A stretch of 64,000 bases of DNA from Akkermansia sp. (GTDB lineage: Bacteria; Verrucomicrobiota; Verrucomicrobiia; Verrucomicrobiales; Akkermansiaceae), in contig JAFWZG010000054.1 of the NCBI GenBank assembly GCA_017517385.1, positions 62,001-126,000 of the forward strand, written 5' to 3'. Below are positions 16,710 to 43,274 of the stretch, piece by piece (positions within the stretch are counted from its first letter, which is position 1; each line of letters begins with the position of its first letter). The translations under genes were made by a program, and so were the position numbers. The notes under the pieces are model-generated. The model saw only the letters and a program-made list of their open reading frames with translations. It ran no database searches and had not been told where the DNA came from.

Positions 16710-17060
16710 ATGAGTGATACTACCCCCATCATACACACATGCCAGCGTTGTGGCGCTTGCTGCCGCTGGGAGGGTGATGTCTGCCTAACTGACGAGGATA
16801 TCACGGCCATAGCCGCTTACCTCGGCCTTAGCGAAGAGCTTTTTATTGAGCGTTACTGCCGCTTGCAGAGGAATAGGCGTGGTCTTTCGCTTATAGACGC
16901 AGAAAATGGAAATGGCCCCTGCTGTATGCTTACAGATGAGGGCTGCCGCATTCAGCCAGTTAAGCCTCAACAGTGCCGCGATTTTCCTTATAAGTGGAAC
17001 TTCCCAGGGTGGGAACAGCGTTGCCCCGGTGCCGGTAAGACCACCGGTCCTGATTTATGA
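16710..17060 (+). CDS. YkgJ-family cysteine-cluster protein
   Basis: A 116-residue cytoplasmic protein of the Fe-S/zinc cysteine-cluster (UPF0153, YkgJ) family. Cysteine pattern: CQRCGACCRW near residues 11-20, then GPCCMLTDEGC and QQCRDFPYKW further on. It probably binds a metal or Fe-S cluster; the biochemical role is unknown. The frame is open to a TTG at 16686, but ATG 16710 (MSDTTPIIHT) is preferred, 5 nt after the tsaB stop. It overlaps the next gene by 4 nt (ATGA). Confidence 0.85.
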   Translation: MSDTTPIIHTCQRCGACCRWEGDVCLTDEDITAIAAYLGLSEELFIERYCRLQRNRRGLSLIDAENGNGPCCMLTDEGCRIQPVKPQQCRDFPYKWNFPGWEQRCPGAGKTTGPDL

Positions 17061-20000
17061 AGATGCCCTTCTCCAGCCATACCAAGCCTCTCCTGCGCTT
17101 GGCTCGTAAGCGTATTCATACGCTGCGAAGTTATTTTACTGAAATCTTTTCACGGGTACCACGCCGTGTGGCTGCGCGTGATGAATCTCGCCGGAGTTAT
17201 GCTGGAGTCATTGTGGATTTGTTTGCTTCCATTATGGCCCGAGTGGATGGTGTTGTCATAGAGGACATGGACACCATTATGGACATGCTCCGCTATGATT
17301 TTCCGAATGTGGAACACCACTGGCTGGCTGAGCGATTCCAGACTGCCTATACGGCTCGTTTCTCCCTGAGTGACACGCTCACCCTCGCAGCGGCCCATCG
17401 TACCTTGGAAGAACGCATGGCATTGGCCTTGGAGATTCTGGCCATGTTGTACCGTGTCGGCGGTGACTTGACGAATCCCACCCTCTTTGAGCGGGTGACA
17501 AATGGCCTGAACTTGCCCGGAGTTGCGCCGGCGCTGGAAGAACTTATCCATACCCCCGGGCAGGATGCCCCTGCTCCCATTCAGTGCCTCACCTTTTCAC
17601 ACAAGCTTGCACCGAACACAGTAACTCTAGCCCGCGAGGAAGGCGAGGTAAGTTTTCGTGCTCTACACTGTGTACATGTGCTGCTTATCATCAATGATAC
17701 CCGCAAGCCGCTCTGTATATGTGGACGTGTGCTGCATAAGGGAGACATGCAGATTCTTTCACCCGGGCAGAACGTGGAACTGGCAGAATGGACTCTCAGT
17801 TATGGCACCATTCGCTCTCTTATCCAGAACCGTTACAGCGGCGTGAGTTATGTAGGATACCTTTTCCGCGAGGATGACGAGGTAAGCATTACCCGCCAGC
17901 GCCCTAGGAATCCCTTAGCCCGCGTGCGCTTCAGTCTTGATGTCGAGCTAGAAGTTCTTGGGCGAGATGCTGCGTTTGTGCTGGAAGGGCGGACGCTTGC
18001 CTCCGGAGAAATCGTAAGGACTACATATTACACCCCGTTTACTGTGAAGGGGCTGGGGCCGTATCGTTTTGCTGAGCTGCATAATGTAGAAGCTCCTGGG
18101 CGCAGTTATCAGCTTGCTCCGGACGTTCGTAAACTCATCGTCACTAATCTTCCCTATATTAACAGCACTTCTGCCCTCATGCTGACCCCGGGGTTAGCCT
18201 CTGCCGTGGTATTCGAGGTGAGTTATTCCCGCTCGGATGGTGAGGGCCATCTGCGTGTGATTGAAGGTGATAATTATCTTAAGGTTAATGGTGAACCTGT
18301 AAAGGGAGATATGACCTTAGCGGATGGGGATCTCATCAGCCTCAGCCCTGTACAGTCTTTACGCTGCCGCTTTTCTTCCGGCGTTCTGGAGGAGGAGTCC
18401 TCTCTTATTCATTCCCTGAGAGTTCAGGGGCTCACGCGTGACTTTGTGCGAGCCGGACGTGTGGTGGATAATATCGACTTTACGCTCAAGCGTGGAGAAA
18501 TGGCGTGTATTCTCGGCCCTAGTGGCTCCGGTAAGAGCACATTGCTGAGTATGCTTGCAGGCCATCTTCTCCCATCATTCGGCTCCATTCATTACAATAA
18601 TGCCCGCCTCACTCCTGATGCTACGGATTTGCGGCGCCATATTGCGTTCATCCCCAGAGAGGATATTCTGGATGAAGCCATGACTGTGGGCGAGCAGGTT
18701 TACCATGCGTCCATTGCCCGCCGCCCCAGATTGAATGATGCGGACCGTAGGCGACGCGTGCTCTCTATTCTTAATTATGTGGGGCTTGGGGCACTGGCTA
18801 ATAGAAATGTCGGCCGCGCTGGCGCTCGCACCTTATCTGACGGCGAGCGCACGCGCCTGAATCTTGGGCTGGATCTCACCGGTACGGCGGAGGTGTTCCT
18901 TATTGACGAACCCATAAGTGGTCTTTCCTCCGGTGATGCTGAGCGTGTGATTGATACGCTTGAGAGCATGTCTCACTCACGTATCCTGCTGTGTACACTT
19001 CATCGCCCCTCTCAGGTTATTCTCAGCCGCTTCAAGAAGGTAATGGTACTGAACTCCAATGGTCAAATGGCCTTCTGGGGGACTCCTGCTGATATGGTGG
19101 ATTACTTCCGCAAGTCAGCTCAAGAGCTGGGGCTTCACGTTTCTCGTGAGGCTGTGGCGGCCGGAGGCGCAGATTATGTGTTTGAGGTGTTGGAGGCGCC
19201 TTACAGCCGCCTGGGGAATGAGCAAAAACCCAGTCCCGGTATGTGGCAGGACCGCTTCGAGAACTACTACTACCGCAGCAAGCCGGTAGAAGATATAGCG
19301 AAGGAACCTGAGCGTGTCCGCCCCGTGCCCCGCAGCCCTCGCCGCAGCTGGAGAGAACTTTGGCGCCTTTTTATTCTGTGGTTCAACCGCACGTTGTTGG
19401 GACGTGTTCGCAGTCGCAAGGCTCTTTATGCTGTGCTGCTGGAGGGCCCAGTCCTGGCGTTGTTGATAGCCGGCACCCTACGTGCGTCATTTGAAGAAAC
19501 CTACACGTTTTACAAGTCACTCCACATAAACGAGTATTTATTCCTCTCGCTGGTGTTGGCCATGTTTTTCGGCTTAACGGATGCAGCTTGTGAGCTATTG
19601 CGTGAAAGACCTTTGCTGAAGCGTGAAAGTAATTACAAACTGTTTATCACGGGGTATCTGGCAGCTAAAGTTCTGGTTATCACCGGTATAGCGGCAGTAC
19701 AGTGTGCTCTGTATCTTCTGGTGGGAAATGCCATTTTAGGAATTGAGGGCATGTTCTGGCAGCATTTGGGGGTAATGACGCTCACGGCGTTTGTGGGCAT
19801 AGCGCTTTCTCTGATGGTGTCCTCGCTGGTGAGTTCCGAGCGTACGGCGCTGAATATTGTGCCGCTTCTGCTGGTGCCGCAAATCCTGCTGGCCGGTGCA
19901 CTTATTCGTTTTGAAGAGATGAATGAGTTCAGCCCGGATCTGCCGGACTTCCTGCCGGCCGCCATAGAAAGCCGCCTTTCCAACCTTCGCCACCGTGTCG

Positions 20001-20623
20001 CTTATCAGGATGAGCGCACTCATAACATCACTTCCAAACCTGTTCCGCTTATCGCTGAATTCTGCCCCCTTCGTTATGCGTTTGAAATGATGTTTGTAAC
20101 GCAAACGCATGGTAATCTGTGGGAAGTAGAAAACCGCCGTGTGAATGAGCGCCGTGAATACCTGAAGGAAAACGGCTCTGTGGAAGAACTTCGTTTTGTA
20201 CAGCGGGCTGCTCTTCTTTTCAATGCTACAGCTCGGGATGCGGAAGAGGCTAAAGACATCCTCCGTTGGGTGCGTAAGGCTGCCCTCAGCGGTGATGAAG
20301 AGTATCTTGAACGATTGACTACTCAGCTCGAGGAACGCGAGGTGAACGAGACAGATCAGCCGGTGGAGTTCTTTTACTCAAATAGAAACCTCAATGTGGT
20401 GCGAGAAGGTGTAAAAACGGCCCGTAAGGACGGACGTCGCAATGAGCACCGTGGATTCTTCCTCGCGCCGAGACAGGCCCTCGCTTTTAGCGGTATCAAC
20501 CAGGAAACTGACGCCGGTTCTGTTCCAACTATCTGGCGTGACGCCGTTTATCTCTTCCTCATGGGGATTTTCCCTGTGTTGGTGGCGGCTAGGCGTCTTC
20601 GCTCCATCTGCCGCGGAGGATGA
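17057..20623 (+). CDS. Multidomain ABCG-like half-transporter with TerB-like and FHA-like regions
   Basis: A 1188-residue protein. Domains in order: a TerB-like helical domain (about residues 45-140, with ARVDGVVIEDMDTIMDML resembling the acidic TerB motif); a beta-rich region (about 190-450) that ends like an FHA domain (NYLKVNGEPVKGDMTLADGD); an ABC ATPase with Walker A GPSGSGKST (487-495), signature LSDGERTRLNLG, Walker B VFLIDEP (Asp617-Glu618) and H-loop TLHRP; then an ABC-2 membrane domain with several TM segments from about 785 onward and a last one near the C-terminus. The ATPase-before-membrane order is that of ABCG/Rv1747-type half-transporters, which act as dimers. It starts 4 nt inside the YkgJ gene. 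The substrate is unknown; the FHA assignment is tentative. Confidence 0.82.
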   Translation: MKMPFSSHTKPLLRLARKRIHTLRSYFTEIFSRVPRRVAARDESRRSYAGVIVDLFASIMARVDGVVIEDMDTIMDMLRYDFPNVEHHWLAERFQTAYTARFSLSDTLTLAAAHRTLEERMALALEILAMLYRVGGDLTNPTLFERVTNGLNLPGVAPALEELIHTPGQDAPAPIQCLTFSHKLAPNTVTLAREEGEVSFRALHCVHVLLIINDTRKPLCICGRVLHKGDMQILSPGQNVELAEWTLSYGTIRSLIQNRYSGVSYVGYLFREDDEVSITRQRPRNPLARVRFSLDVELEVLGRDAAFVLEGRTLASGEIVRTTYYTPFTVKGLGPYRFAELHNVEAPGRSYQLAPDVRKLIVTNLPYINSTSALMLTPGLASAVVFEVSYSRSDGEGHLRVIEGDNYLKVNGEPVKGDMTLADGDLISLSPVQSLRCRFSSGVLEEESSLIHSLRVQGLTRDFVRAGRVVDNIDFTLKRGEMACILGPSGSGKSTLLSMLAGHLLPSFGSIHYNNARLTPDATDLRRHIAFIPREDILDEAMTVGEQVYHASIARRPRLNDADRRRRVLSILNYVGLGALANRNVGRAGARTLSDGERTRLNLGLDLTGTAEVFLIDEPISGLSSGDAERVIDTLESMSHSRILLCTLHRPSQVILSRFKKVMVLNSNGQMAFWGTPADMVDYFRKSAQELGLHVSREAVAAGGADYVFEVLEAPYSRLGNEQKPSPGMWQDRFENYYYRSKPVEDIAKEPERVRPVPRSPRRSWRELWRLFILWFNRTLLGRVRSRKALYAVLLEGPVLALLIAGTLRASFEETYTFYKSLHINEYLFLSLVLAMFFGLTDAACELLRERPLLKRESNYKLFITGYLAAKVLVITGIAAVQCALYLLVGNAILGIEGMFWQHLGVMTLTAFVGIALSLMVSSLVSSERTALNIVPLLLVPQILLAGALIRFEEMNEFSPDLPDFLPAAIESRLSNLRHRVAYQDERTHNITSKPVPLIAEFCPLRYAFEMMFVTQTHGNLWEVENRRVNERREYLKENGSVEELRFVQRAALLFNATARDAEEAKDILRWVRKAALSGDEEYLERLTTQLEEREVNETDQPVEFFYSNRNLNVVREGVKTARKDGRRNEHRGFFLAPRQALAFSGINQETDAGSVPTIWRDAVYLFLMGIFPVLVAARRLRSICRGG

Positions 20624-20671
20624 GTATAACAGAAAAATCTTGCTGTATGGCTGAATCTTCACTAAAAAAAG

Positions 20672-20699
20672 TTGATTTTTGTAAATTATTCATTAAAAT
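20672..20699 (+). promoter_or_regulatory. Leaderless-type promoter of RND operon 1
   Basis: TTGATT (20672-20677), 16 nt, TAAAAT (20694-20699). The ATG at 20707 follows 7 nt after the -10 box. This supports 20707 as the start rather than the upstream in-frame ATG at 20620. Confidence 0.65.
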
Positions 20700-20706
20700 G
20701 TACCAC

Positions 20707-22893
20707 ATGAAAGTTTTTCAAAAAGTTGCGGTGTTGCTGCCGCTTTTTGCTCTCTCTGCAGAGGCTCAGATGGGCAGACAAGCAGCACACGTTCAAGTTG
20801 AGACAGTTTCAATCGGAAGGGACCGTATTACTCGCAAGAGTATCGGCCACATGGAGGCTATTCGTAGCGTCGCAGTTCGTTCTGCAGTAGAAGGTTACCT
20901 GTTGGAACCCCGCTTTCAGGAAGGTTCTATAGTACAGGAGGGAGATGTTCTGTTTGAGATAGACCCCACCCGCTACCGCGCCGCAGTACAGCAGGCTGAA
21001 GCCGCTCTTGAGGAGATTGATGCTCGTATCGTGTATGCTGAGAATAACCATCGCCGTCTTGCCGGCCTTTCTCAGCGTCAGGCTGCTTCCGTGGAAGAGA
21101 CTGAGAGCGCTGAGGCTCGCCTTGAGGAACTGCGTGCCAGCCGTGCCGGTGCTGAGGCTGAACTTGTACGCGCTCGCAAGGACTTGGAAGATTGCACCAT
21201 CCGCGCGGAAATTACAGGCCGCATAGGCCGGGCCTCCTTCTCTCAGGGAAACTATGTTACCCGAGGTGAAAATCTGGTTACGATTAAGCAGATGGATCCC
21301 ATCTATGTTCGCTTCCCTCTCAGCCAGGCAGATGTGAACGGCATTTTCCGTGGCCCTCAGGAAATCAGCAATGTGGCAGATGTGCGCCTCACCATGGCTA
21401 ATGGGCGCCAGTATGCTCATCCCGGCCGAGTCAGCATCGTGGATAACATGCTGACTTCCGCCACGGATACTTACACCCTGTGGGCAGAGTTCTCAAACAG
21501 GGATAACCAGCTCACTCCCCGTGGCATCGGTGCTATGCACGTGGCCCTTTCGGATACGCAGCAGGTCTGCATGGTGCCTCTCACCGCCGTTCATTATGAT
21601 TCTAACGGCGCATATGTTTATGCTGTGGATGCAGAGAACGTGGTCTCCCGCAGAGAGGTTATTGTTGGTTCCATCCAAGGCCGTTTGCAGTCTGTGTATG
21701 AAGGACTCCGTGAAGGCGAAACAATCATCACGGACGGTGCCCACAAAGTGCGCGTGGGTGATAAGGTGGTGCCCGTCATGGCCCAGAATAATGCTGGCGC
21801 CAGTGAGGAAAACAGCACCGCTGCTGAGATTCCGCCTGTGGAAGTGGTGTTGACCCCGGTTGTTATGGCTCAGGACACCACGGTGCTTACTTGTCAAGGC
21901 GCCCGTGTTGAGGCTATCAATCGAGTGTCCTTGCGTCCTCTTGTTCAGGGTGTGCTTGGTGAACCTTCCTTCCGTGAGGGTGATGTTGTTCAGCAGGGGA
22001 CACCCCTTTTCAGTATTGACCCGACCCGTTATCAGGCTGTGGTGGACGCTCGTCGTGCTGCCATTGCTCAGCTTGAGGTAAAGCTGCGTGACGCTGAGCG
22101 AAAATATGAACGTCAGCGTGCTCTGGTAACAACGGATGCAACTAGCCGCTCAGAGCTGGAGCGTGCGAAGGCCACGATGGATGAGCTTAAGGCTCAGCTG
22201 AAGAGCGCTCAGGCTGCTCTGGTGGTGGCAGAGGATGATTTGGCCCGCTGTACAGTATGTGCCCCCATTACCGGGCGTGTGGGTCGAGTCGCTTTTTCTC
22301 GTGGTAACTATGTTTCTGACATGAAGCTGCCCCTTGCTACGCTGGTGCAGATAAGCCCCATTTATGTGCGTTTCTCCCTGAGTGAAAATGCCATCCTTTC
22401 CACCTATGGTACGGATGACCGCCTAGAGGCTGATGCTGATGTCACGCTTGTGACGGCCAGCGGTAACACCTACCATGAGCGCGGCTCTGTGGCTTTCAGT
22501 GATAATGTGATTCAGACTGCCACGGATACGCAGAACTTCTGGGCTGTTTTCAAGAATGAAGACGCTCTTTTGCAGCCCGGTGGTATCGTGACCATCCGGG
22601 TCACCCGTAAGGCTGACCGCCGCGTGCCCGCGGTGGCAGCGGAGGCTGTGCTCACGGATACCAGTGGCCGCTATGTGTACGCTATGCGTCACAATCGCGC
22701 TGTTCTGGTGCGTGTGCTCTGTGGCCGTGTGGATGAGAACGGTCTCATCCCTGTGTTTGCCGGGCTGGAGGAAGGTGATCAGTGCATCATATCCCCCTTG
22801 GCTGAGGTGGAGGATGGTACGCCTGTTATCCCTGCTCCCACTCAGGACGCGGTAACGCCTGCCGCTGAAGAATCTACTTCCACCGCCGAATAA
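20707..22893 (+). CDS. Tandem-fused RND membrane fusion protein (AcrA-AcrA), operon 1
   Basis: A 728-residue exported protein made of two complete AcrA-like periplasmic adaptors. The signal peptide is MKVFQKVAVLLPLFALSAEA. Half 1 (about residues 30-375) and half 2 (about 378-710) each contain a lipoyl half-motif with IDPTRY, an alpha-helical hairpin, a second lipoyl half with the block GNYV, a PIYVRF strand and an ATDTxxxWAxF beta-barrel block. There is no lipobox, so it should be periplasmic. It lies 24 nt before the RND pump gene. The frame is open to 20620, but 20707 gives the signal peptide and fits the promoter. A fused dimer could replace the two adaptors normally bound per pump protomer. 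Confidence 0.88.
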   Translation: MKVFQKVAVLLPLFALSAEAQMGRQAAHVQVETVSIGRDRITRKSIGHMEAIRSVAVRSAVEGYLLEPRFQEGSIVQEGDVLFEIDPTRYRAAVQQAEAALEEIDARIVYAENNHRRLAGLSQRQAASVEETESAEARLEELRASRAGAEAELVRARKDLEDCTIRAEITGRIGRASFSQGNYVTRGENLVTIKQMDPIYVRFPLSQADVNGIFRGPQEISNVADVRLTMANGRQYAHPGRVSIVDNMLTSATDTYTLWAEFSNRDNQLTPRGIGAMHVALSDTQQVCMVPLTAVHYDSNGAYVYAVDAENVVSRREVIVGSIQGRLQSVYEGLREGETIITDGAHKVRVGDKVVPVMAQNNAGASEENSTAAEIPPVEVVLTPVVMAQDTTVLTCQGARVEAINRVSLRPLVQGVLGEPSFREGDVVQQGTPLFSIDPTRYQAVVDARRAAIAQLEVKLRDAERKYERQRALVTTDATSRSELERAKATMDELKAQLKSAQAALVVAEDDLARCTVCAPITGRVGRVAFSRGNYVSDMKLPLATLVQISPIYVRFSLSENAILSTYGTDDRLEADADVTLVTASGNTYHERGSVAFSDNVIQTATDTQNFWAVFKNEDALLQPGGIVTIRVTRKADRRVPAVAAEAVLTDTSGRYVYAMRHNRAVLVRVLCGRVDENGLIPVFAGLEEGDQCIISPLAEVEDGTPVIPAPTQDAVTPAAEESTSTAE

Positions 22894-22917: not shown

Positions 22918-25900
22918 ATGTTTTCTCAATTTTTCATCGGCAGACCCAAGTTCGCCTTCGTTATATCCATCGTGATGATGCTGGCAGGTTTCCTCTGCCT
23001 GAGCATGATGCCCGTGTCTGAGTACCCGGAAGTATCCCCGCCCACCATTTCGGTGCGCATGAATTACGCGGGTGCTAGTGCTGAGGAGTTGGCTCAGGTA
23101 GTGGCCGCTCCCGTGGAAGAGAATCTTATCGGCATGGATGACCTGCTGTACTTCCACTCATCCTGTACGAATGACGGCTCCTATTCCCTGACGCTCATCT
23201 TCGAGACCGGCACGAATGATGATATGGCCATGGTGAACGTCTCCAATGCCATTAAGCAGGTAGAAAGCCGACTTCCGGAGGAAATTAAGCGCACCGGTTA
23301 CAGCGTGCGTAAACGCTCCAGTGATATGCTCTGCTTCCTGAGCTTCATGTGCGACGAGAATAAAATGGATATTCTCGAACTCACAAACTGGTTGCGCATG
23401 AACGTGAAAGACCCGCTCACCCAGGTGGACGGCGTATCCGTGGCTGACATCATGCACAGCCGCAACTACTCCATGCGTGTGTGGCTGAACACAACCCGCA
23501 TGAACGCTTTGAACATCACCCCGGCTGATGTAAATAGCGCCATTGCCGCCCAGAATATTCAGGCTGCTGCAGGTTCCGTAGGCTCTCAGGACGAAGGCGC
23601 TTATGCTACTTACAAAGTGACCGCCACAGGCCGCCTCCGCACAGTGGAAGAGTTCAGCAACATTATCGTCAAGCGTGGCGAGGAAGGACATGTTACCCGC
23701 TTGAGCGACATCGCCACCATTGAGCTGGGCGCGGAGAATAACTCTGGTTACAGCCGCCTGAACGGACGCAATGCCGTGGGTATGATGGTTCAGCGTAATA
23801 ATGATGCTAACGCTCTGGCCACTGTGGATGCCCTGAAGGAAAAGATGAAGGAAATCGAGCCTCTTCTTCCGGATGGTGTCACATGGACGATGGGCTATGA
23901 CCCCACCCAAGCTATTCAGGCCACGATGGAAGAAATCGGCATCACATTGGTGCTGGCTCTGTTCCTCGTGGTGTTAGTGACATACGTTTTCTTGCAGGAT
24001 TGGCGTGCTACGCTGATTCCCACGCTGGCCATTCCGGTATCCCTTCTGGGTGCCTTTGCCTTCATGTATGTGCTGGGGTACAGCATTAACGTGCTGACAA
24101 TGTTCGGCCTCATTCTGGTTATCGGTTCACTGGTGGACGACGCTATCGTGGTGGTGGAGAACGTGATGCGAATCATTCACGAAGAAGGCCTCAGCCCGAG
24201 AGAGGCTACCATCAAGAGCATGAAGCAGATTACCGGCGCCATTATCGCCACCACGCTGGTGACGCTGGCCGTGTACGTTCCTATCGCCTTCTACGGCGGC
24301 ATGGTGGGTGTGATTTACACCCAGTTCTCCGTCACTATGTGCGTGGCTCTCTGTATCTCTACCTTCAATGCTCTCACGCTTTCCCCTGCTCTGTGCGCCC
24401 TCATTCTGCGCCCGGCCGGTGTGAAGCAGAGCGCTCTTTCCTACTGGTTGTTCCGCCCCTTCAACTGGTTCTTGGAGAAGTGCCGCACCTTCTATCTGTG
24501 GGGTGCCGGCATTCTGGTGCGTAACGCATGGCTCACTGTTATTATTTTGGCTGCTGTGCTGTACGCCAATTACATCTACACCAGTGGTGCTCCTCAGTGG
24601 TGGAACCAAATCTGGCGTGGCGCGCCGCAGGCTGCAGCTGCCCCCGCCGGTGCGAAGTCTGCCGCTAAGAGCCAGTTTGACTTCCTCAGCCTTATTGCAC
24701 CTGAGATGCTGAACAGCTCCTTCATCCCCACTGAGGATAAGGGCGCCGTCTTCTGTATCGTGAACCTTGAAGGCTCTGCTACCGCTAAGCAGCGTACGGA
24801 TAGGGTGATGCGCCAGATTGAAGAGCGCATCGGAAGGTTTGAGGGTATTGAAATGGTGACCTCTACCAGTGGTTTCAGCTTTGCTTCCGGTTCCGGTGAG
24901 GGTAACGGTATGGTTATCGTCATGCTTAAGCCTTGGAGTGAGCGAACCTCCCCTGACTTACACGCCTCTGCTTTGGCGCAGAAGATTAATGCTGCCTGTG
25001 CGGATATTCCTGAGGCCTCTGTGATGGCCACAACGCCCCCTGCCATTCAGGGCCTTGGCTTGTATGGCGGTGTGTCAATGGTGCTGGAAGGCCGCGGTAG
25101 CGCTACGCCTGCTGATCTGGGTAACATGGTCAAGGAAATCACGGCGCGTCTTCAGTCTCATCGGGGACTTATCTCCATGGTTCGCTCCGAGTTTAATGCT
25201 GAGACACCGCAGATTCGCCTCGAAATCAACCGAGAGAAGGCTCAGGCCCTCAATGTGGACGTGAAGAGCATCTTCAATACGCTCCAGACCGTGCTGGCTT
25301 CCTCTTACGTAAATGACTTCACGCTGAACGGCTTCAACTTCAAGGTGAAGATTCAGGGCGATGTGCGTGATCGCCGCACGGCGGATGACATCATGAACCA
25401 GATGGTGCGTAATGCCCATGGCGAGATGGTGCCGCTTTCTGCCGTGTGCACGCTTTCCTACCGCCTTGGCCCGTCAAATTACGGCCGCTTCAATCAGTAC
25501 ATGAGCGCGGATGTAACTGTGATGCCCGCTCCAGGTGTGGGCTCTGGTCAGGTGATGTCTCTTATCGAGAAGACTATCGCCGAAGTCAACATGGAAGAGC
25601 GTAACAATAATACCGGCCGTCAGTGGTCCGTAGAATGGAAGGATCTTTCTTATCAGGAGCGCCAGAATGATGGCAAGGTGGGCCTGCTCATCGGCTTGGC
25701 CATGCTCTTCGCTTATCTCTTCCTCGTGGCTCAGTACGAGAGCTGGACCACACCGGTGCCAGTGATGCTCTCTGTATCCGTCGCTACTCTGGGTGCTTTC
25801 ATGGGTGCGCAGCTCTTCGGGCTTACGCTTTCCATTTACGTGCAGCTGGGTATTCTGATGCTTATCGGTCTTGCAGCCAAGAACGCCATTCTCATGGTGG

Positions 25901-26208
25901 AGTTCAGTAAGGAGGACCATGCCGCCGGTAATACCGTACAGGTGGCCGCTTTGAATGGTGCCGGTATGCGATTCCGCGCCGTGCTCATGACGGCCATTTC
26001 CTTCCTTTTCGGTGTATTCCCCATGGTGGTTGCTACCGGCTCCGGTGCAGCTAGCCGTCAGGAAATCGGCGTTACCACCTTCTTCGGTATGCTTCTGGCT
26101 ACGCTTTTCGGTATCTTCCTTGTGCCAGGTCTGTACTCCATTTTCGCTCGTATGCGTGACTGGACTGCTCGCACCATCGGTGTGGATAAGCCGGCTAAGA
26201 AAGCCTGA
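22918..26208 (+). CDS. RND efflux pump, HAE1/AcrB family, operon 1
   Basis: A 1096-residue inner-membrane proton-driven multidrug transporter. The proton-relay pair Asp407-Asp408 ([13 protein letters not shown]) falls at the same numbering as in AcrB, and the TM10 lysine is Lys988 in [13 protein letters not shown]. The opening MFSQFFIGRPKFAFVISIVM is typical. It is longer than AcrB (1049), mainly by an Ala-rich insert around residues 565-585 (APQAAAAPAGAKSAAKS) after TM7. It is paired with the fused adaptor upstream. No outer-membrane channel gene follows; terminators do. Drug range cannot be predicted. Confidence 0.94.
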   Translation: MFSQFFIGRPKFAFVISIVMMLAGFLCLSMMPVSEYPEVSPPTISVRMNYAGASAEELAQVVAAPVEENLIGMDDLLYFHSSCTNDGSYSLTLIFETGTNDDMAMVNVSNAIKQVESRLPEEIKRTGYSVRKRSSDMLCFLSFMCDENKMDILELTNWLRMNVKDPLTQVDGVSVADIMHSRNYSMRVWLNTTRMNALNITPADVNSAIAAQNIQAAAGSVGSQDEGAYATYKVTATGRLRTVEEFSNIIVKRGEEGHVTRLSDIATIELGAENNSGYSRLNGRNAVGMMVQRNNDANALATVDALKEKMKEIEPLLPDGVTWTMGYDPTQAIQATMEEIGITLVLALFLVVLVTYVFLQDWRATLIPTLAIPVSLLGAFAFMYVLGYSINVLTMFGLILVIGSLVDDAIVVVENVMRIIHEEGLSPREATIKSMKQITGAIIATTLVTLAVYVPIAFYGGMVGVIYTQFSVTMCVALCISTFNALTLSPALCALILRPAGVKQSALSYWLFRPFNWFLEKCRTFYLWGAGILVRNAWLTVIILAAVLYANYIYTSGAPQWWNQIWRGAPQAAAAPAGAKSAAKSQFDFLSLIAPEMLNSSFIPTEDKGAVFCIVNLEGSATAKQRTDRVMRQIEERIGRFEGIEMVTSTSGFSFASGSGEGNGMVIVMLKPWSERTSPDLHASALAQKINAACADIPEASVMATTPPAIQGLGLYGGVSMVLEGRGSATPADLGNMVKEITARLQSHRGLISMVRSEFNAETPQIRLEINREKAQALNVDVKSIFNTLQTVLASSYVNDFTLNGFNFKVKIQGDVRDRRTADDIMNQMVRNAHGEMVPLSAVCTLSYRLGPSNYGRFNQYMSADVTVMPAPGVGSGQVMSLIEKTIAEVNMEERNNNTGRQWSVEWKDLSYQERQNDGKVGLLIGLAMLFAYLFLVAQYESWTTPVPVMLSVSVATLGAFMGAQLFGLTLSIYVQLGILMLIGLAAKNAILMVEFSKEDHAAGNTVQVAALNGAGMRFRAVLMTAISFLFGVFPMVVATGSGAASRQEIGVTTFFGMLLATLFGIFLVPGLYSIFARMRDWTARTIGVDKPAKKA

Positions 26209-35654: not shown

Positions 35655-38627
35655 ATGACCAGACACACGCTCATAGCTCTGGCTCTTTGCGGTTTCTCGC
35701 TCAGCACTATCCCCGGTTGCAACGAGCAGGAATCCACTCAGACTCAGGCTCAGGAAGTCAAGGTAAAAACAGCAACAATTCGTACCCAGCAGGTGACCGA
35801 TTACGGTGAATGGTTCGGCTACCTGCGCGGTAAGCAAGATACGGACATCCATCCGCGCGTCAGCGGCTTCCTCATTGCGCAGGAGTACAGTGATGGCCAG
35901 TTTGTAAAACAGGGTGATGTGCTTTTCAGGATTGACCCCGCACTCTTTGAAGCCGAGTTAGCACAAGCAGAAGCAAATCTTCAGGCCGCACAGGCCGAAC
36001 TGGCATCCGCCATCGCCACGCGAGACCAGCTCAAGCGTGATACCGAACGCTATGAAGCCCTTGCCAGATCAGCCGCTGTTTCAGAGAAGGATTTGAGCGA
36101 TGTACGCCACAATTACCGCGCGGCGGAGGCAAACGTAGCCGCCTGCGAGGCCCGCATCGAGCAGCAAAAGGCCGCCGTGAGCACTGCCCGCATCAATCTG
36201 GACTACACCGTCATCCGCGCCCCCTATGATGGCGTCATGAGTACAGCTCTAGCCTCCCGCGGTGACCTCGTCTCCTCTGCCACCAAGCTGGCTAACATCA
36301 CGGCCATCAACCCCATGCGTGTGGATATCTCCATCAACAGCGATGGCCTTGTGAACTCCTTCCGCCGCTATGGTAATGTGCAGTCCGACCGTCGTGATGA
36401 ATCACTGACCTCCCCGAACTTCGACATTATTCTGGAAGATGGTAGCGTTTATCCGTACCAAGGCAATCTGCTCTCCATGGAAAGCACCGTATCCTCCACC
36501 GGCCTTATTGATGTTGAGGGCGAAGTGGAGAATCCGGACGCGGCTCTGCGCGGCGGCATGCCGGTGCGCGTAAAGATTCCGCTGCGCCAAATGGATGCCA
36601 TGCTGGTGCCGCAGGAAGCCATCCGCTCCGTGCTGCGAAATTACTTCATCATTGTGGTGGATAAGAACAATATCCCCCACACCGTCCCGGTGAATATTGC
36701 CGGCCGCTATGATATCACCATCACGGAGGATGACGGCTATACCACCACCGCTAAGCTCGTGGCTATCTCGGATTCCGGCCGCCCGCTCATGGATTACTTC
36801 AAGGAATGCGGCTATGAGAATGCCACGGAAGTCCCCGTCGTGGCAGACCCCACCAACGGCGTGCGAGCCATGAACATTTCCTCGGCAAACAGCCGTCTCG
36901 CAGCTGATGACCCCACCCCCCGAGGCACCGTAGCGACAGAGCCTTTCTCCTTCCGTCCCACCCTTACCGAAACCGAGCGCAAAGCACTTGAGCAGGCTAC
37001 CAGCGGAGAGAAACCCGAGGTGAATACACAGGTGGCCGCCTCCCTGCCAGCTTACCCTGTGAAGGTAACACCGCTTCTCCGCCAGGACGTCCTCATTCAG
37101 GAAGAATGGTACGGCACTCTCCGTGGTGAGGAAGAGGCGGAAATCCGTCCGCGTGTGAGCGGCTTCCTGCTTCAGCAGCACTTCCGCAATGGCACCATCG
37201 TGAAAGAGGGTGACGTGCTCTATACTATTGACCCCGCCCCCTACCAAGCTGCGCTGGACCAAGCCCGCGCCAACCTTCTGGCAGCCAAAGCCTCCCGGGA
37301 GCAGGCTCAGGCTAAGTTGGATTCCAGCCGTGAGGAGCTTGAGCGCTGCAACCGCCTCGCCCCCGGCACTGTGTCCGACAAAGTCGTGACGGATGCTCGC
37401 ACCAGCGTGCAGACGAATGAAGCCGCAGTCATGCGTGCTGACGCCAACATCGCGCAGATGGAAGCAGCCGTGCGACTCGCAGAAATCAACCTGAATTACA
37501 CCACCATCAGGGCCCCCTTTGATGGCAGAGTCGGCATCAGCAAGCCCTCCATCGGCGAGCTGGTGTCCTCCTCCAGCCAAGAGCCTCTCGTCACCCTTTC
37601 CTCCATTAATCCCATCCGTGTGGATTTCAGCGTGAGCGGCCGAGAAGCCCTTCAGAGCATCGAGATTATGCGCCGCAATCAGGCCGAGCACAACGGCCGC
37701 GTGCAGTTCGACCTCGTTCTCCGAAACGGTGCCGTTTACCCCGCCAAGGGTGAAATCGTTTCCATGGATAATACGCTGAGCACCACCACAGGCACCTTCG
37801 GTCTCGTAGGCCGCGTGGAAAATGTGGACCAAGGCCTGCGCAGCGGCATGCCGGTGCGCGTACGTGCCTCCATGGCCCCCATTAAAGACGCCTTCCTCGT
37901 GCCCGCTCGTGCACCGATGAACGCCGGTGGTCGCGATTTGCTACTGCTTCTGCGCCCGGATAACACGCCCGCCGCACTTCCGGTGACTCTGGGCAAGCTG
38001 GTGGTACTTCCCATACAGGAGCCCGGTGAAAATGGCCAGCCCGGCCCGGTAGTGAACCAGCCCATGTATGTGGTGGATGTAGACCGAGCCTCTATTGTGC
38101 CGCTCATGCTCGCCAAGACAGGCGCCAGCAGCTTGGACGCCATGATTCTGGGTGGTGCTGAGGTGGACAGCTGGGACGCCCTTGTGCTGAAGAACGCCGG
38201 CGTGGCAGACTGGCGCGCCCTTCTGGAAAAACAGGCCGGCGAATCCCTGCCGGATGATTACCCGCAGCAGGAGCAAGCTGAAGACTGGCGCGCGCTCGTA
38301 CTGCGCCGTGCCGGTGTGCAGAACGCTAAGGAGCTGGTGCTGCGCCAGTCCGGCGCCAAGGATGAGCTGGAGCTTGTAGCTCGCGGCGCCGGCTTCTCCT
38401 CCGCTATGGAAATGATGCTCAAGCAGATGGAGTTTACGGATATGAATAATGTTCCCGTCATCGTGGAAGGTACCCTCATGGCAGCCTCCCGCACCTTGCA
38501 GAAGAACAGTAGCCAGAATACCCGGGCTAATACCCTCACCCCCATTATCTTCCATTACCAAGCACCACAGACGGTGGTGGACTCCGTAACAGCCGATACG
38601 GAAAACGCTGCACCTCAGTACAAATAA
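35655..38627 (+). CDS. Tandem-fused RND membrane fusion lipoprotein (AcrA-AcrA), operon 2
   Basis: A 990-residue protein with a lipoprotein-type signal (ends TIPGC, Cys at about residue 22) and two full AcrA-like adaptors. Half 1 (about 33-440) and half 2 (about 465-985) each have PRVSGFL plus IDPA lipoyl halves, an alpha-hairpin, IRAPYDG or IRAPFDG closing lipoyl halves, an INPxRVD strand and a GMPVRV barrel block. A linker of about 80 residues rich in Thr/Glu/Pro joins them. Half 2 carries an extra array of 13-residue repeats (residues 815-930). It is paired with the RND pump 21 nt downstream. The two halves of this protein share motifs with each other that the other fusion lacks. Confidence 0.88.
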   Translation: MTRHTLIALALCGFSLSTIPGCNEQESTQTQAQEVKVKTATIRTQQVTDYGEWFGYLRGKQDTDIHPRVSGFLIAQEYSDGQFVKQGDVLFRIDPALFEAELAQAEANLQAAQAELASAIATRDQLKRDTERYEALARSAAVSEKDLSDVRHNYRAAEANVAACEARIEQQKAAVSTARINLDYTVIRAPYDGVMSTALASRGDLVSSATKLANITAINPMRVDISINSDGLVNSFRRYGNVQSDRRDESLTSPNFDIILEDGSVYPYQGNLLSMESTVSSTGLIDVEGEVENPDAALRGGMPVRVKIPLRQMDAMLVPQEAIRSVLRNYFIIVVDKNNIPHTVPVNIAGRYDITITEDDGYTTTAKLVAISDSGRPLMDYFKECGYENATEVPVVADPTNGVRAMNISSANSRLAADDPTPRGTVATEPFSFRPTLTETERKALEQATSGEKPEVNTQVAASLPAYPVKVTPLLRQDVLIQEEWYGTLRGEEEAEIRPRVSGFLLQQHFRNGTIVKEGDVLYTIDPAPYQAALDQARANLLAAKASREQAQAKLDSSREELERCNRLAPGTVSDKVVTDARTSVQTNEAAVMRADANIAQMEAAVRLAEINLNYTTIRAPFDGRVGISKPSIGELVSSSSQEPLVTLSSINPIRVDFSVSGREALQSIEIMRRNQAEHNGRVQFDLVLRNGAVYPAKGEIVSMDNTLSTTTGTFGLVGRVENVDQGLRSGMPVRVRASMAPIKDAFLVPARAPMNAGGRDLLLLLRPDNTPAALPVTLGKLVVLPIQEPGENGQPGPVVNQPMYVVDVDRASIVPLMLAKTGASSLDAMILGGAEVDSWDALVLKNAGVADWRALLEKQAGESLPDDYPQQEQAEDWRALVLRRAGVQNAKELVLRQSGAKDELELVARGAGFSSAMEMMLKQMEFTDMNNVPVIVEGTLMAASRTLQKNSSQNTRANTLTPIIFHYQAPQTVVDSVTADTENAAPQYK
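38097..38444 (+). repeat. Array of 13-residue repeats inside adaptor fusion 2
   Basis: Residues 815-930 of the fused adaptor consist of about eight units with 13-residue period, such as DAMILGGAEVDSW, DALVLKNAGVADW, RALVLRRAGVQNA, KELVLRQSGAKDE and LELVARGAGFSSA. One unit is interrupted by a Gln/Asp/Glu-rich insert (DDYPQQEQAED). The pattern is roughly [acidic or basic]-A/E-L-V-L-R/K-x-A-G-V-x-x-W/A and predicts short amphipathic helices. It has no counterpart in half 1 or in the other fusion. Confidence 0.8.
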
Positions 38628-38648
38628 ACCTCTCACCGCTGAAACATT

Positions 38649-41600
38649 ATGTCTCCGTTTTTCATCAAACACCCCATCATCGCCGGCGTTATCTCCATCG
38701 TCACCACGATGCTGGGCATCATCTGCATGCTGGCCCTGCCCATCTCGCAGTACCCGGACATCACCCCCATCACCATTCAGCTCAGCGCTACTTACCCCGG
38801 CGCTAACGCTCAGGAGGTAGCGGATGCCGTAGCCACGCCCATTGAGCTGCAGCTCTCCGGTATTCAGAGAATGGACTACATGTCCTCCATCTCTTCCAAC
38901 AACGGCTCCTGCACGCTGAATGTCATCTTCGAGCCCGGTTCGGATGCTAACACGAACCAGCAGCTCACCTACATGCGTTACAGTCAGTCCACGTCCCAGC
39001 TGCCCTCCACGGTATCGCAGATGGGCGTGACTATCAAGCAGTCCGCCGGTCTGCCGCTGATGATTTATGCTATTGACTCCCCTGAAGGCTTCTTCAACCC
39101 CATTGACCTCACCGGTTATGCCTACATCAACCTTGTAGATCCGATCAAGCGTGTGAAGGGCGTAGGTGACGCGATGGTATTCGGTGGCCGTTATGCCGTG
39201 CGTATCTGGCTGGACAGCGAGCGCATGGCCCAAAAAGGCATCAGCGTTAATCAGGTGTATAACGCCATTAACCAGCAGAACACCATCAACCCCGGTGGCT
39301 CCGTGGGCGCTGAGCCTATGCCTGATGGCCAAGAGTTTACCTACACCATCCGTAACAAGGGCCGCATGGAAAGCATCGAGGAGTTCGGTGATATCATCAT
39401 CATGCAGGATCACACCCAGTCCGTGCGCCTGAAAGATGTAGCCCGCATTGAGCTCGGCTCTCAGAGCTACTCCCTCGCCGGCCGTGTGGACGGCACCCCT
39501 GCCACCTGTATTGCTATCTATCAGGCGGCCGAGGCCAATGCACTGGAAACGGTGTCTGCCCTCCGTGAGCTCTTTGCTGAAAAAGAAAGCGTGATGCCGG
39601 AAGGCATGCGCGGTTTCGTGGCACTGGATACCACCACCACGGTGAGCGACTCAATCAATGAGATTATCCACACCCTCTTTGAGGCTCTGGTACTGGTAGC
39701 CATCGTGGTGTTCCTGTTCCTGCAGGGCTGGCGCGCCACGCTCATTCCGCTCATTGCCGTGCCGGTATCACTGGTAACCACCTTCTGCTTCTTCCCCATT
39801 CTGGGCTTCTCGCTGAATACCATCTGCCTTCTGGGCATGGTGCTGGCCATTGGTCTCGTGGTGGATGACGCCATCGTGGTGGTTGAAGCCGTGGAATCCC
39901 ACATGGAAAACGGCATGACACCCCGTCAGGCCACATTCGCCGCCATGAAGGAAGTGAGTGGCCCCGTCATGGCTATCGCCCTCGTGCTGGCAGCCGTGTT
40001 CCTGCCCTCCGTGATGCTCCCGGGCATCACCGGCACACTCTTCCAGCAGTTCGCCGTAACGATTGCGGTTTCCATGTTGATTTCCGCATTTAACGCCCTC
40101 ACCCTTTCGCCAGCACTCTCAGCTATCATGCTGAAGAACAAGAAGGAGCACAAATCTCTGCTCACCCCCTTCTACAATGCCTTTAACAAGGGCTACGACT
40201 GGGTGGCCGGCAAATTCGCAACAGCTTGCGGCTTCTTCTGCCGCCGCCTCTGGATTTCCATGCCGATTCTGGCCGGCATCACCCTCCTCATCATCCCGAC
40301 GGCCAGCCGTGTGCCGGGTGGCTTCCTCCCCTCTGAGGACCAAGGCTTCCTCATCGCCGGTGTCATCATGAAGCCCGGTGCATCCCTGCAGCGCCTCACG
40401 GAGGAAACCATTCCTGTGGAGGAAGTGCTGCTGAGTGATTCCGCCGTGGATCACGTGGTATCCATCCTCGGTATGAACCTCATGATTAACGTGCAGACCA
40501 CGAACGCGATGACCTACTTCGTGAAGCTGCATGACTTCGAGAATCGCCCCGTGATGGAAAACGGCGAGCACCCCACCGCTCAGGATATCTATGAGCGCCT
40601 CAGCGCCAGGCTGGACATGAGCGGCGCGGACGGTATCGTCTTCATGGCCATGCCCCCCGCCATTCCCGGCGTGGGTACGGGTAATGACATCTCCTTCGTG
40701 CTGGAAGACTTGGAAGGACAGGGCGTGGCCGCTCTGTACGCCCAGATGCAGCGCTTGGAGGCCGCTCTGAAAGCCCACCCTGCTATCAAGACTGCCTCGG
40801 ACATGATGCTGCCGGCCGTACCGCAGAAAGGTATCGCCATAGACAAGGACAAGTGCCTTGCTCAAGGTGTGGACTACTCCGGCGTCAACGCTCTGCTGCA
40901 GTGCTTCAACGGCTCTCGCTTCGTGAACTACTACACGCAGTTCGGCCAGCAGTGGCAGGTATACATGCAGGCAGCCGGTGCCAGCCGCGCCAATACGGAT
41001 CAGATTGCAAACTTCTATGTTTCCAACAATCGCGGTGAATCCGTGCCACTCAGCACACTCGTCACCATCCGAGATATCGCTGATACCGAGTTCGTACAGC
41101 ACACCAATAACTACAACAGCGGTACCATCCGAGTGGCACCCGCTGATGGCTATTCCTCCGCTCAGGCCATGGCGGCCATTGAGGAGGTGTTCAATGAGAC
41201 GATGGACAAGACCAAGTTCGCTATCGCCTATGTGGACATGAGCTTCCAGGAAAAGAAGGTGCAGGATGGTCTCGGCCTCGGCGCCATCTTCACGCTCTCC
41301 GGCGTATTCGCCTTCCTCATCATGGCGGCTCTGTACGAGAAGTGGACGCTCCCGCTCTCCATCTTCCTTTCCGTGCCCATCGCTGTGCTGGGTGCCTTCT
41401 TCGGCCTGTGGGTATTCGACCTCACGCTGGACCTCTACGCGCAGATTGGTCTAGTCATGCTGGTGGGTCTTGCGGCTAAGAACGCCATTCTGATTGTGGA
41501 GTTCGCCGTGCTGCAGATGGAGCGTGGACAGTCCCTCATCGATGCTGCGGTGACGGCCGCCCGCATGCGTCTGCGCCCGATTCTGATGACCTCCTTCGCC

Positions 41601-41843
41601 TTCATTCTGGGCTGCGTACCGCTGCTCACCGCAGAAGGCTCCGGCGCCTTGGCCCGTAACGCCATCGGCGTGGTGGTGGTAATCGGCATGAGCGTCGCCA
41701 CCTTGGTGGGTGTATTCTTCATCCCCTGCTCCTTCGTATTCATCATGAAGCTTTTCCGCTCCAAGGTACACAAGGCTCAGCACGGAGCAGACCCGGACGA
41801 AGAGTTCGCTTACGCCAAGCTCGCTGAAGGCGAGCAGGAGTAA
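38649..41843 (+). CDS. RND efflux pump, HAE1/AcrB family, operon 2
   Basis: A 1064-residue inner-membrane proton-driven exporter. It starts [18 protein letters not shown]. The proton-relay aspartates are Asp406-Asp407 in [13 protein letters not shown] and the TM10 lysine is Lys944 in [38 protein letters not shown] is close to AcrB, MexB and other HAE1 pumps, closer than pump 1 is. It is followed by a bidirectional terminator. No outer-membrane channel gene is present in the window, so a TolC-type partner must come from elsewhere. Confidence 0.95.
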
Positions 41844-42608: not shown

Positions 42609-43274
42609 ATGAAAAAGACACTCATCGCGATTATGGCTCTGGCCGGCCTTGCCGCCGCCGAGACTTACACCGCCAGCACTCCCGCCAAGAGCGGCACCGG
42701 CGCTCAGGGTAACTACTATGGTTTCACACTCGCTCCCAACAACGATACCTACCTGACCAACACTATCCCGGACAATATCTCGGTGATGACTTTGGAGAGC
42801 ATTACCCTCCTGAGCCGTTCTAATGTTGGTGACAAATGCCCGGATGTGAAGGTTGCTGTGTATGCCTATACTGCGGATTCCACAACTGGCACCTACCTTG
42901 GTGTATCGACCAACAGCACCGGAACCGCTGCTGACAACACTACCTACACGCTGAACTTCAGCGGTATTACCATTAATCCGAATGACCGCTACCAGTTCCT
43001 CTATGTTCAGGCCAACACCACTGAAGATCTGACCACCTTCGCCGGCTATCAGGAGGCTGCTATGTCTTGGGGTACTTCCGTAACCAATTCCTTCAGCACC
43101 AACATTCCCGATGGTTGGGGAACCTACAAGAGCAACGGCATTAACAGCTGGGAAGGCCAGTATATCCCTGTTACTACGGTAACCCTGAGCACACCTGCTG
43201 TTCCTGAGCCCACCACGGCAACCCTGAGCCTGCTGGCTTTGGCTGGTCTGGCAGCCCGTCGTCGCCGCAAGTAA
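42609..43274 (+). CDS. Small secreted PEP-CTERM protein
   Basis: A 221-residue exported protein. It has a signal peptide (MKKTLIAIMALAGLAAAE), a Thr/Asn/Ser-rich beta-type body, and a textbook C-terminal sorting signal: VPEP, a hydrophobic stretch (TTATLSLLALAGLA) and ARRRRK. PEP-CTERM signals are processed by exosortase (EpsH/XrtA-type), usually in exopolysaccharide-producing Gram-negative bacteria and Verrucomicrobia. No exosortase is in the window. The body has no recognised enzymatic domain. The gene stands alone with its own promoter and terminator. Confidence 0.88.
   Translation: MKKTLIAIMALAGLAAAETYTASTPAKSGTGAQGNYYGFTLAPNNDTYLTNTIPDNISVMTLESITLLSRSNVGDKCPDVKVAVYAYTADSTTGTYLGVSTNSTGTAADNTTYTLNFSGITINPNDRYQFLYVQANTTEDLTTFAGYQEAAMSWGTSVTNSFSTNIPDGWGTYKSNGINSWEGQYIPVTTVTLSTPAVPEPTTATLSLLALAGLAARRRRK

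Follow-up and report, generated by a model that had tools for sequence, protein, structure and literature searches.

Efflux adaptors occupy two non-equivalent positions. In most systems a single gene supplies both of them, which makes it hard to tell how each one activates the pump. In both MexAB and AcrAB, adaptor II meets PN2 of the pump through its membrane-proximal (MP) domain (PMC7532149; PMC6975555; PMC5404916). In MexAB, the MP domain of MexA-II pushes PN2 of MexB and the exit gate opens (PMC7532149); the MP domain of PAP2 binds PN2 (PMC6975555). Gly363 of the AcrA MP domain is essential, its replacement abolishing function (PMC6975555; PMC4338810), and residue 346 (box 8) of the same MP hairpin cross-links to AcrB (PMC6975555). 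In TriABC-OpmH, two non-equivalent adaptors, TriA and TriB, serve each pump protomer at specialised positions (PMC13328181; PMC4338810). Adaptors have also been joined covalently as constructs: in PDB entry 6vej two RND adaptors are fused to each other, and AcrA keeps its function when fused in tandem (PMC13328181).

The window considered here, a stretch of 64,000 nucleotides from Akkermansia sp. (contig JAFWZG010000054.1), encodes an adaptor in which two modules are naturally joined in one chain of 990 residues (Table 1). TIGR01730 (RND_mfp) matches this chain in two stretches, scoring 346 bits where the curated cutoff is 94.9, and HlyD_3, HlyD_D23, and Biotin_lipoyl_2 each match twice. The AlphaFold2 model of the second half contains the adaptor fold (lipoyl, barrel, alpha-hairpin, and MP), and its top PDB matches are AcrA (E 6e-30), MexA, and MacA. 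An RND permease lies directly 3' of the adaptor, and the ORF list of the window has no extra gene between the two. By profile, fold, MP glycine, and permease partner, the protein is an RND periplasmic adaptor of the TIGR01730/MFP type, and its single chain supplies both adaptor positions, I and II, of a tripartite RND efflux pump. Genes for TolC-like outer-membrane factors lie at other sites of the same genome. The locus resembles TriA-TriB in having two non-equivalent adaptors, whereas it differs from 6vej and tandem AcrA in that the fusion is not a construct and its halves differ by a repeat array.

Several features of the neighborhood may be recorded alongside. At the junction of adaptor and permease (38627-38649), the two genes share a reading frame and are separated by a stop and a few codons; in G007 and G023, a single TAA parts them within an open frame of 2049 codons. 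Tandem adaptors occur twice within the window, the other being a fusion of 757 residues upstream (20620-22893; matched twice by TIGR01730, 440 bits), which has an RND permease of its own (22918-26208). Directly upstream of that fusion is an ABC transporter of 1188 residues (17057-20623), which has a long N-terminal region, then an ATPase, then a C-terminal membrane domain. A small secreted protein (42609-43274) ends in VPEPTTATLSLLALAGLAARRRRK, a PEP-CTERM-type sorting tail.

Table 1. Features of the array-bearing adaptor and its permease (positions in the window; residues of the encoded protein)
Feature	Position	Strand	Basis
RND periplasmic adaptor with two MFP modules fused in tandem, 990 aa	35655-38627	+	TIGR01730, HlyD_3, HlyD_D23, Biotin_lipoyl_2
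Single unit-like helix, residues 378-390, LMDYFKECGYENA, equivalent MP turn of first half	36786-36824	+	Alignment with AcrA, array-less orthologs, and single adaptors
Helical array (residues 811-930), opening with helix 811-822 and continuing as 13-residue ladder	38085-38444	+	Autocorrelation, AlphaFold2
Block 1: four units of 13 residues, with starts at 815, 828, 841, 854	38097-38252	+	Autocorrelation, consensus
Degenerate 12-residue fifth element between blocks, residues 867-878	38253-38288	+	Autocorrelation, orthologs
Block 2: four units of 13 residues, with starts at 879, 892, 905, 918	38289-38444	+	Autocorrelation, consensus
MP strand VPVIVEG, residues 933-939; Gly939 aligned with AcrA Gly363	38451-38471	+	E. 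coli AcrA alignment
Partner RND permease, 1064 aa, directly 3' of adaptor	38649-41843	+	ACR_tran 911 bits; TIGR00915 above cutoff
Permease PN2 beta-turn, residues 280-283 (AcrB 282-284 region), site of 6 extra residues in array-less relatives	39486-39497	+	Permease alignment

A sequence-only reading of this DNA had proposed about eight units with an exact period of 13 at residues 815-930 of the adaptor, and this description held. The interval 38097-38444 corresponds exactly to these residues of the ORF, and their mean BLOSUM62 autocorrelation at lag 13 has z = 8.2, a value reached by 0 of 3000 shuffles across lags 5-49. Taken alone, the two blocks of four give z = 6.1 and 6.8. The period within each block is exactly 13, and the step between blocks is 25 because the fifth element has lost one residue. 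This element reads DDYPQQEQAEDW in the window protein and DDAPQKAGVADW in orthologs, and it looks like a ninth unit minus its helical core and one residue. Across 37 rows, the units share the consensus x-[E/A/D]-L-[V/I/L]-L-[K/R]-x-A-G-[A/V]-x-[D/S/N]-x. By the same autocorrelation, the first 750 residues of the adaptor carry no period-13 signal. A DNA tandem-repeat finder detects no repeat in the DNA of the array, such that the periodicity is visible in protein only; the array is therefore an old repeat with diverged units. Its net charge is about −2 (neutral to acidic) with no cationic bias, leaving a cationic membrane-binding array unsupported.

AlphaFold2, given the window protein aligned with related loci and used for secondary structure and confidence, predicts a series of short, repeated helices in place of an ordinary MP domain, in agreement with the helical ladder that had been suggested. 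The predicted helices span residues 811-822, 827-834, 840-848, 853-861, 869-872, 878-886, 891-899, 904-911, and 917-924. Every 13-residue unit is modeled as a helix of 8-9 residues with pLDDT of about 90-97; confidence over the array blocks is about 88-94 in the model of the half and 84-97, with a pTM of 0.74, in a model of the array alone. We read the consensus as describing one short helix per unit, with a probable Asp/Ser N-cap and Gly-hydrophobic C-cap. Helix-hairpin-helix (HhH) motifs, which bind DNA, consist of two helices joined by a GhG hairpin, and the capping of the units presumably follows a supersecondary logic like that of HhH loops, a likeness of capping pattern only. Short alpha-helical solenoids and HhH motifs differ from the array, which has one helix per 13 residues and no two-helix repeat.

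The search for relatives of this element returned no Pfam match to residues 796-942 up to E 10 and no NCBIfam match to residues 797-945 up to E 0.01. Foldseek found no fold match to the array model in the PDB (best E 3.1, TM 0.20) or in BFVD (best E 1.2, TM at most 0.20), very short helices being a weak case for this program; a cellular relative of the fold beyond PDB and BFVD may exist. Literature searches yielded no relevant paper on tandem adaptors of Akkermansia or on helical repeats of 13 residues, and TriA and TriB are not known to contain such an array. The array is an addition to the known RND adaptor family without a match in Pfam, NCBIfam, PDB, or BFVD; a profile match to a described repeat family, which would have counted against the sequence-only reading, did not turn up in Pfam or NCBIfam.

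Where does the array sit? Alignment with E. coli AcrA places it in the MP domain of the second half, near the pump-facing end as had been proposed, at the site of the GLKAGD turn between the LVTE and GDRVVISG363 strands. It directly precedes the strand with the Gly363 equivalent and lies between the equivalents of AcrA residue 346 and Gly363. Gly939 is invariant among long-array orthologs, and the essential MP glycine of AcrA type is thus conserved. The canonical GLxxGD turn is absent, replaced in the second half by the array and in the first by a single helix. Because this turn is usual and not strictly defining, its absence marks a variant, and membership in the RND adaptors stands. The likeness to AcrA, MexA, and MexC lies in the family matches of both halves, the AcrA-like fold predicted for the second half, the adjacent permease, and the retained glycine; the difference lies in having two modules per chain and an eight-helix array in place of the second MP turn. 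Neither AcrA nor the AcrA-type single adaptor L039 of the same order has such an MP insertion in the alignment.

The array had also been described as absent from the other half of the protein and from the other fusion. The upstream fusion indeed has an ordinary MFP turn, GLREGETIITDG (a GLREGE turn), without an array. For the other half, the statement is correct for the array itself but not for its unit, as one unit-like helix occupies the same site (residues 378-390). A single helix-like segment at the MP turn is found in the first half, in array-less orthologs, and in many single adaptors of the genus (e.g. AILQQMGYTDP and IAETLKEAGIENV); in the alignment, AcrA has no helix at the MP turn equivalent to the array site. 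With a PSSM built from all units except the last, the single MP segment was the best 13-mer in 5 of the 15 array-less proteins tested, and matches of the array profile to single adaptors cover the last unit and the following strand only. Most simply, the array would be an amplified form of this single MP helix, a history that the homology test supports, though not uniformly.

The relatives that the genome collection names are Akkermansia MAGs, mostly of herbivore guts. A profile search of the phylum, as the sequence-only reading had suggested, located the array in 25 of 44 Akkermansia-genus genomes and in none of the other genera sampled (0/49 of the order, 0/197 of the phylum sample). Counted by genome, all 245 order-sample genomes from outside the genus lack it, as does the phylum sample. 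A 26th match, in G063, is a single adaptor that the profile matches over the last unit only. Unit number and register are fixed in the 37 long-array rows, small gaps aside; shorter arrays, in which unit number differs, are found in one clade of four and in L076. Mean identity to the window protein is 52% in the array, 55% in the part of the MP domain next to it, and 60% across barrel and hairpin. When closely related array-bearing adaptors are compared in pairs, dN/dS of the array is 0.02-0.18, mostly near that of the remainder of the protein (at or slightly above it) and far below 1; judged by these ratios, the array is under purifying selection. Trp840, Trp878, Asp903, Ala909, and Gly913 are invariant, and Arg811 is conserved. 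Units at orthologous positions are 53% identical, compared with 23% for paralogous units within one protein; unit turnover therefore ended before these species split, and recent expansion or concerted evolution is rejected.

In one clade (L081-L083, L018, and L019), the last unit is the only one present. This clade falls inside array-bearing lineages in an adaptor tree from which the array was excluded (the alternative of all long arrays forming one side of a branch has AU p 0.0016), is nested also when single adaptors serve as outgroup, and is nested with a support of 100 in a permease tree rooted with paralogs. The array was therefore most likely lost secondarily in this clade. An array-less ancestral state for these orthologs is rejected by the nesting in the outgroup-rooted adaptor and paralog-rooted permease trees.

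The loss was accompanied by a change in the permease. A 6-residue insertion in the PN2 turn is present in 4/4 array-less species examined versus 0/43 array-bearing or short-array sequences, and it is the sole internal indel of more than 3 residues among 44 aligned permeases (the truncated L019 set aside). Permease substitutions diagnostic of array state are few, with none in PN2. The array-less clade has also gained about 32 residues in the inter-half linker, after the MP domain of the first half. The gain in L081, L082, and L083, located after residue 422 of the window protein, contains a unit-like, helix-like LLSTILVSVGLEDK stretch, and the extra residues are possibly a substitute for the lost array. 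Array loss, PN2 insertion, and linker gain all fall on one branch (n = 1), one event pair and no statistical series; as the linker gain shares this branch, the apparent array-PN2 coupling may be to something else.

Because the array lies beside the MP glycine strand, is found in one half only, and was lost together with a PN2 insertion, we propose that it serves the second adaptor position as a rigid brace for docking. From position, conservation, and the PN2 insertion, we give this reading a probability of about 0.45. The pump-facing MP turn of the second half would have been amplified from one short capped helix to a fixed ladder of eight. This ladder would enlarge the MP contact with the porter domain of the pump, most likely with PN2, and could fix where the strand with the Gly363 equivalent lies and how stiff it is, this strand being the adaptors' route to pump activation. 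Present in one half only, it would make the two adaptor positions permanently different. We predict that the second half takes position II and that the ladder touches PN2 or the neighboring adaptor, thereby affecting pump activation. The PN2 insertion in the array-less clade possibly compensates for array loss. A more specific claim, namely that a new short-helix solenoid with one capped helix per 13 residues arose in the MP turn as an activation brace for one adaptor position and co-evolves with PN2, seems to us rather doubtful.

The ladder might instead pack mainly against a neighboring MP domain, either in the first half of its own chain or in the next adaptor of the ring, closing gaps between MP domains with no direct action on the pump. 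AcrA molecules do not meet one another at their MP domains in the AcrAB-TolC model, and transport requires the gaps between AcrA dimers to close (PMC4338810; PMC5404916). The helix-like LLSTILVSVGLEDK gain after the first-half MP domain in the array-less clade also appears as if it replaced an inter-half part. Such packing is nonetheless unlikely, as it leaves the PN2 insertion on the same branch unexplained. Solenoid-like arrays are common binding surfaces, and the conserved Arg811, Trp840, Trp878, Asp903, and Gly913 could form a surface for a partner outside the pump, whether an accessory subunit, peptidoglycan, or the inner-membrane surface. This we regard as improbable: the near-neutral array has no cationic face of the kind expected for membrane binding, the window holds no additional gene between adaptor and permease, and the conserved Trp and Leu positions are equally compatible with a buried core. 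The sequence-only reading had suggested contact with the pump or the membrane; pump contact is favored by the position of the array and the correlated PN2 insertion, and membrane contact is disfavored by the net charge.

It is similarly improbable that the array is neutral, a drifting and tolerated surface-loop expansion that lacks any specific role. One clade does retain adaptor and permease without it, unit number varies in the short-array clade and L076, and its identity is slightly lower than that of the rest (52% versus 60%). Neutral amplification is at odds, however, with the low dN/dS, with the fixed number and register of units that are conserved by position without turnover, and with the five invariant residues.

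Overall, the array shows in compact form a repeat module built by amplifying a local turn, unmatched in the searched libraries. The Akkermansia tandem adaptors separate the two adaptor positions naturally, by their covalent order and by an extra element in one half, beside the glycine switch. With long, short, and array-less versions available in nature, the coupling between MP and PN2 can be tested by swaps.
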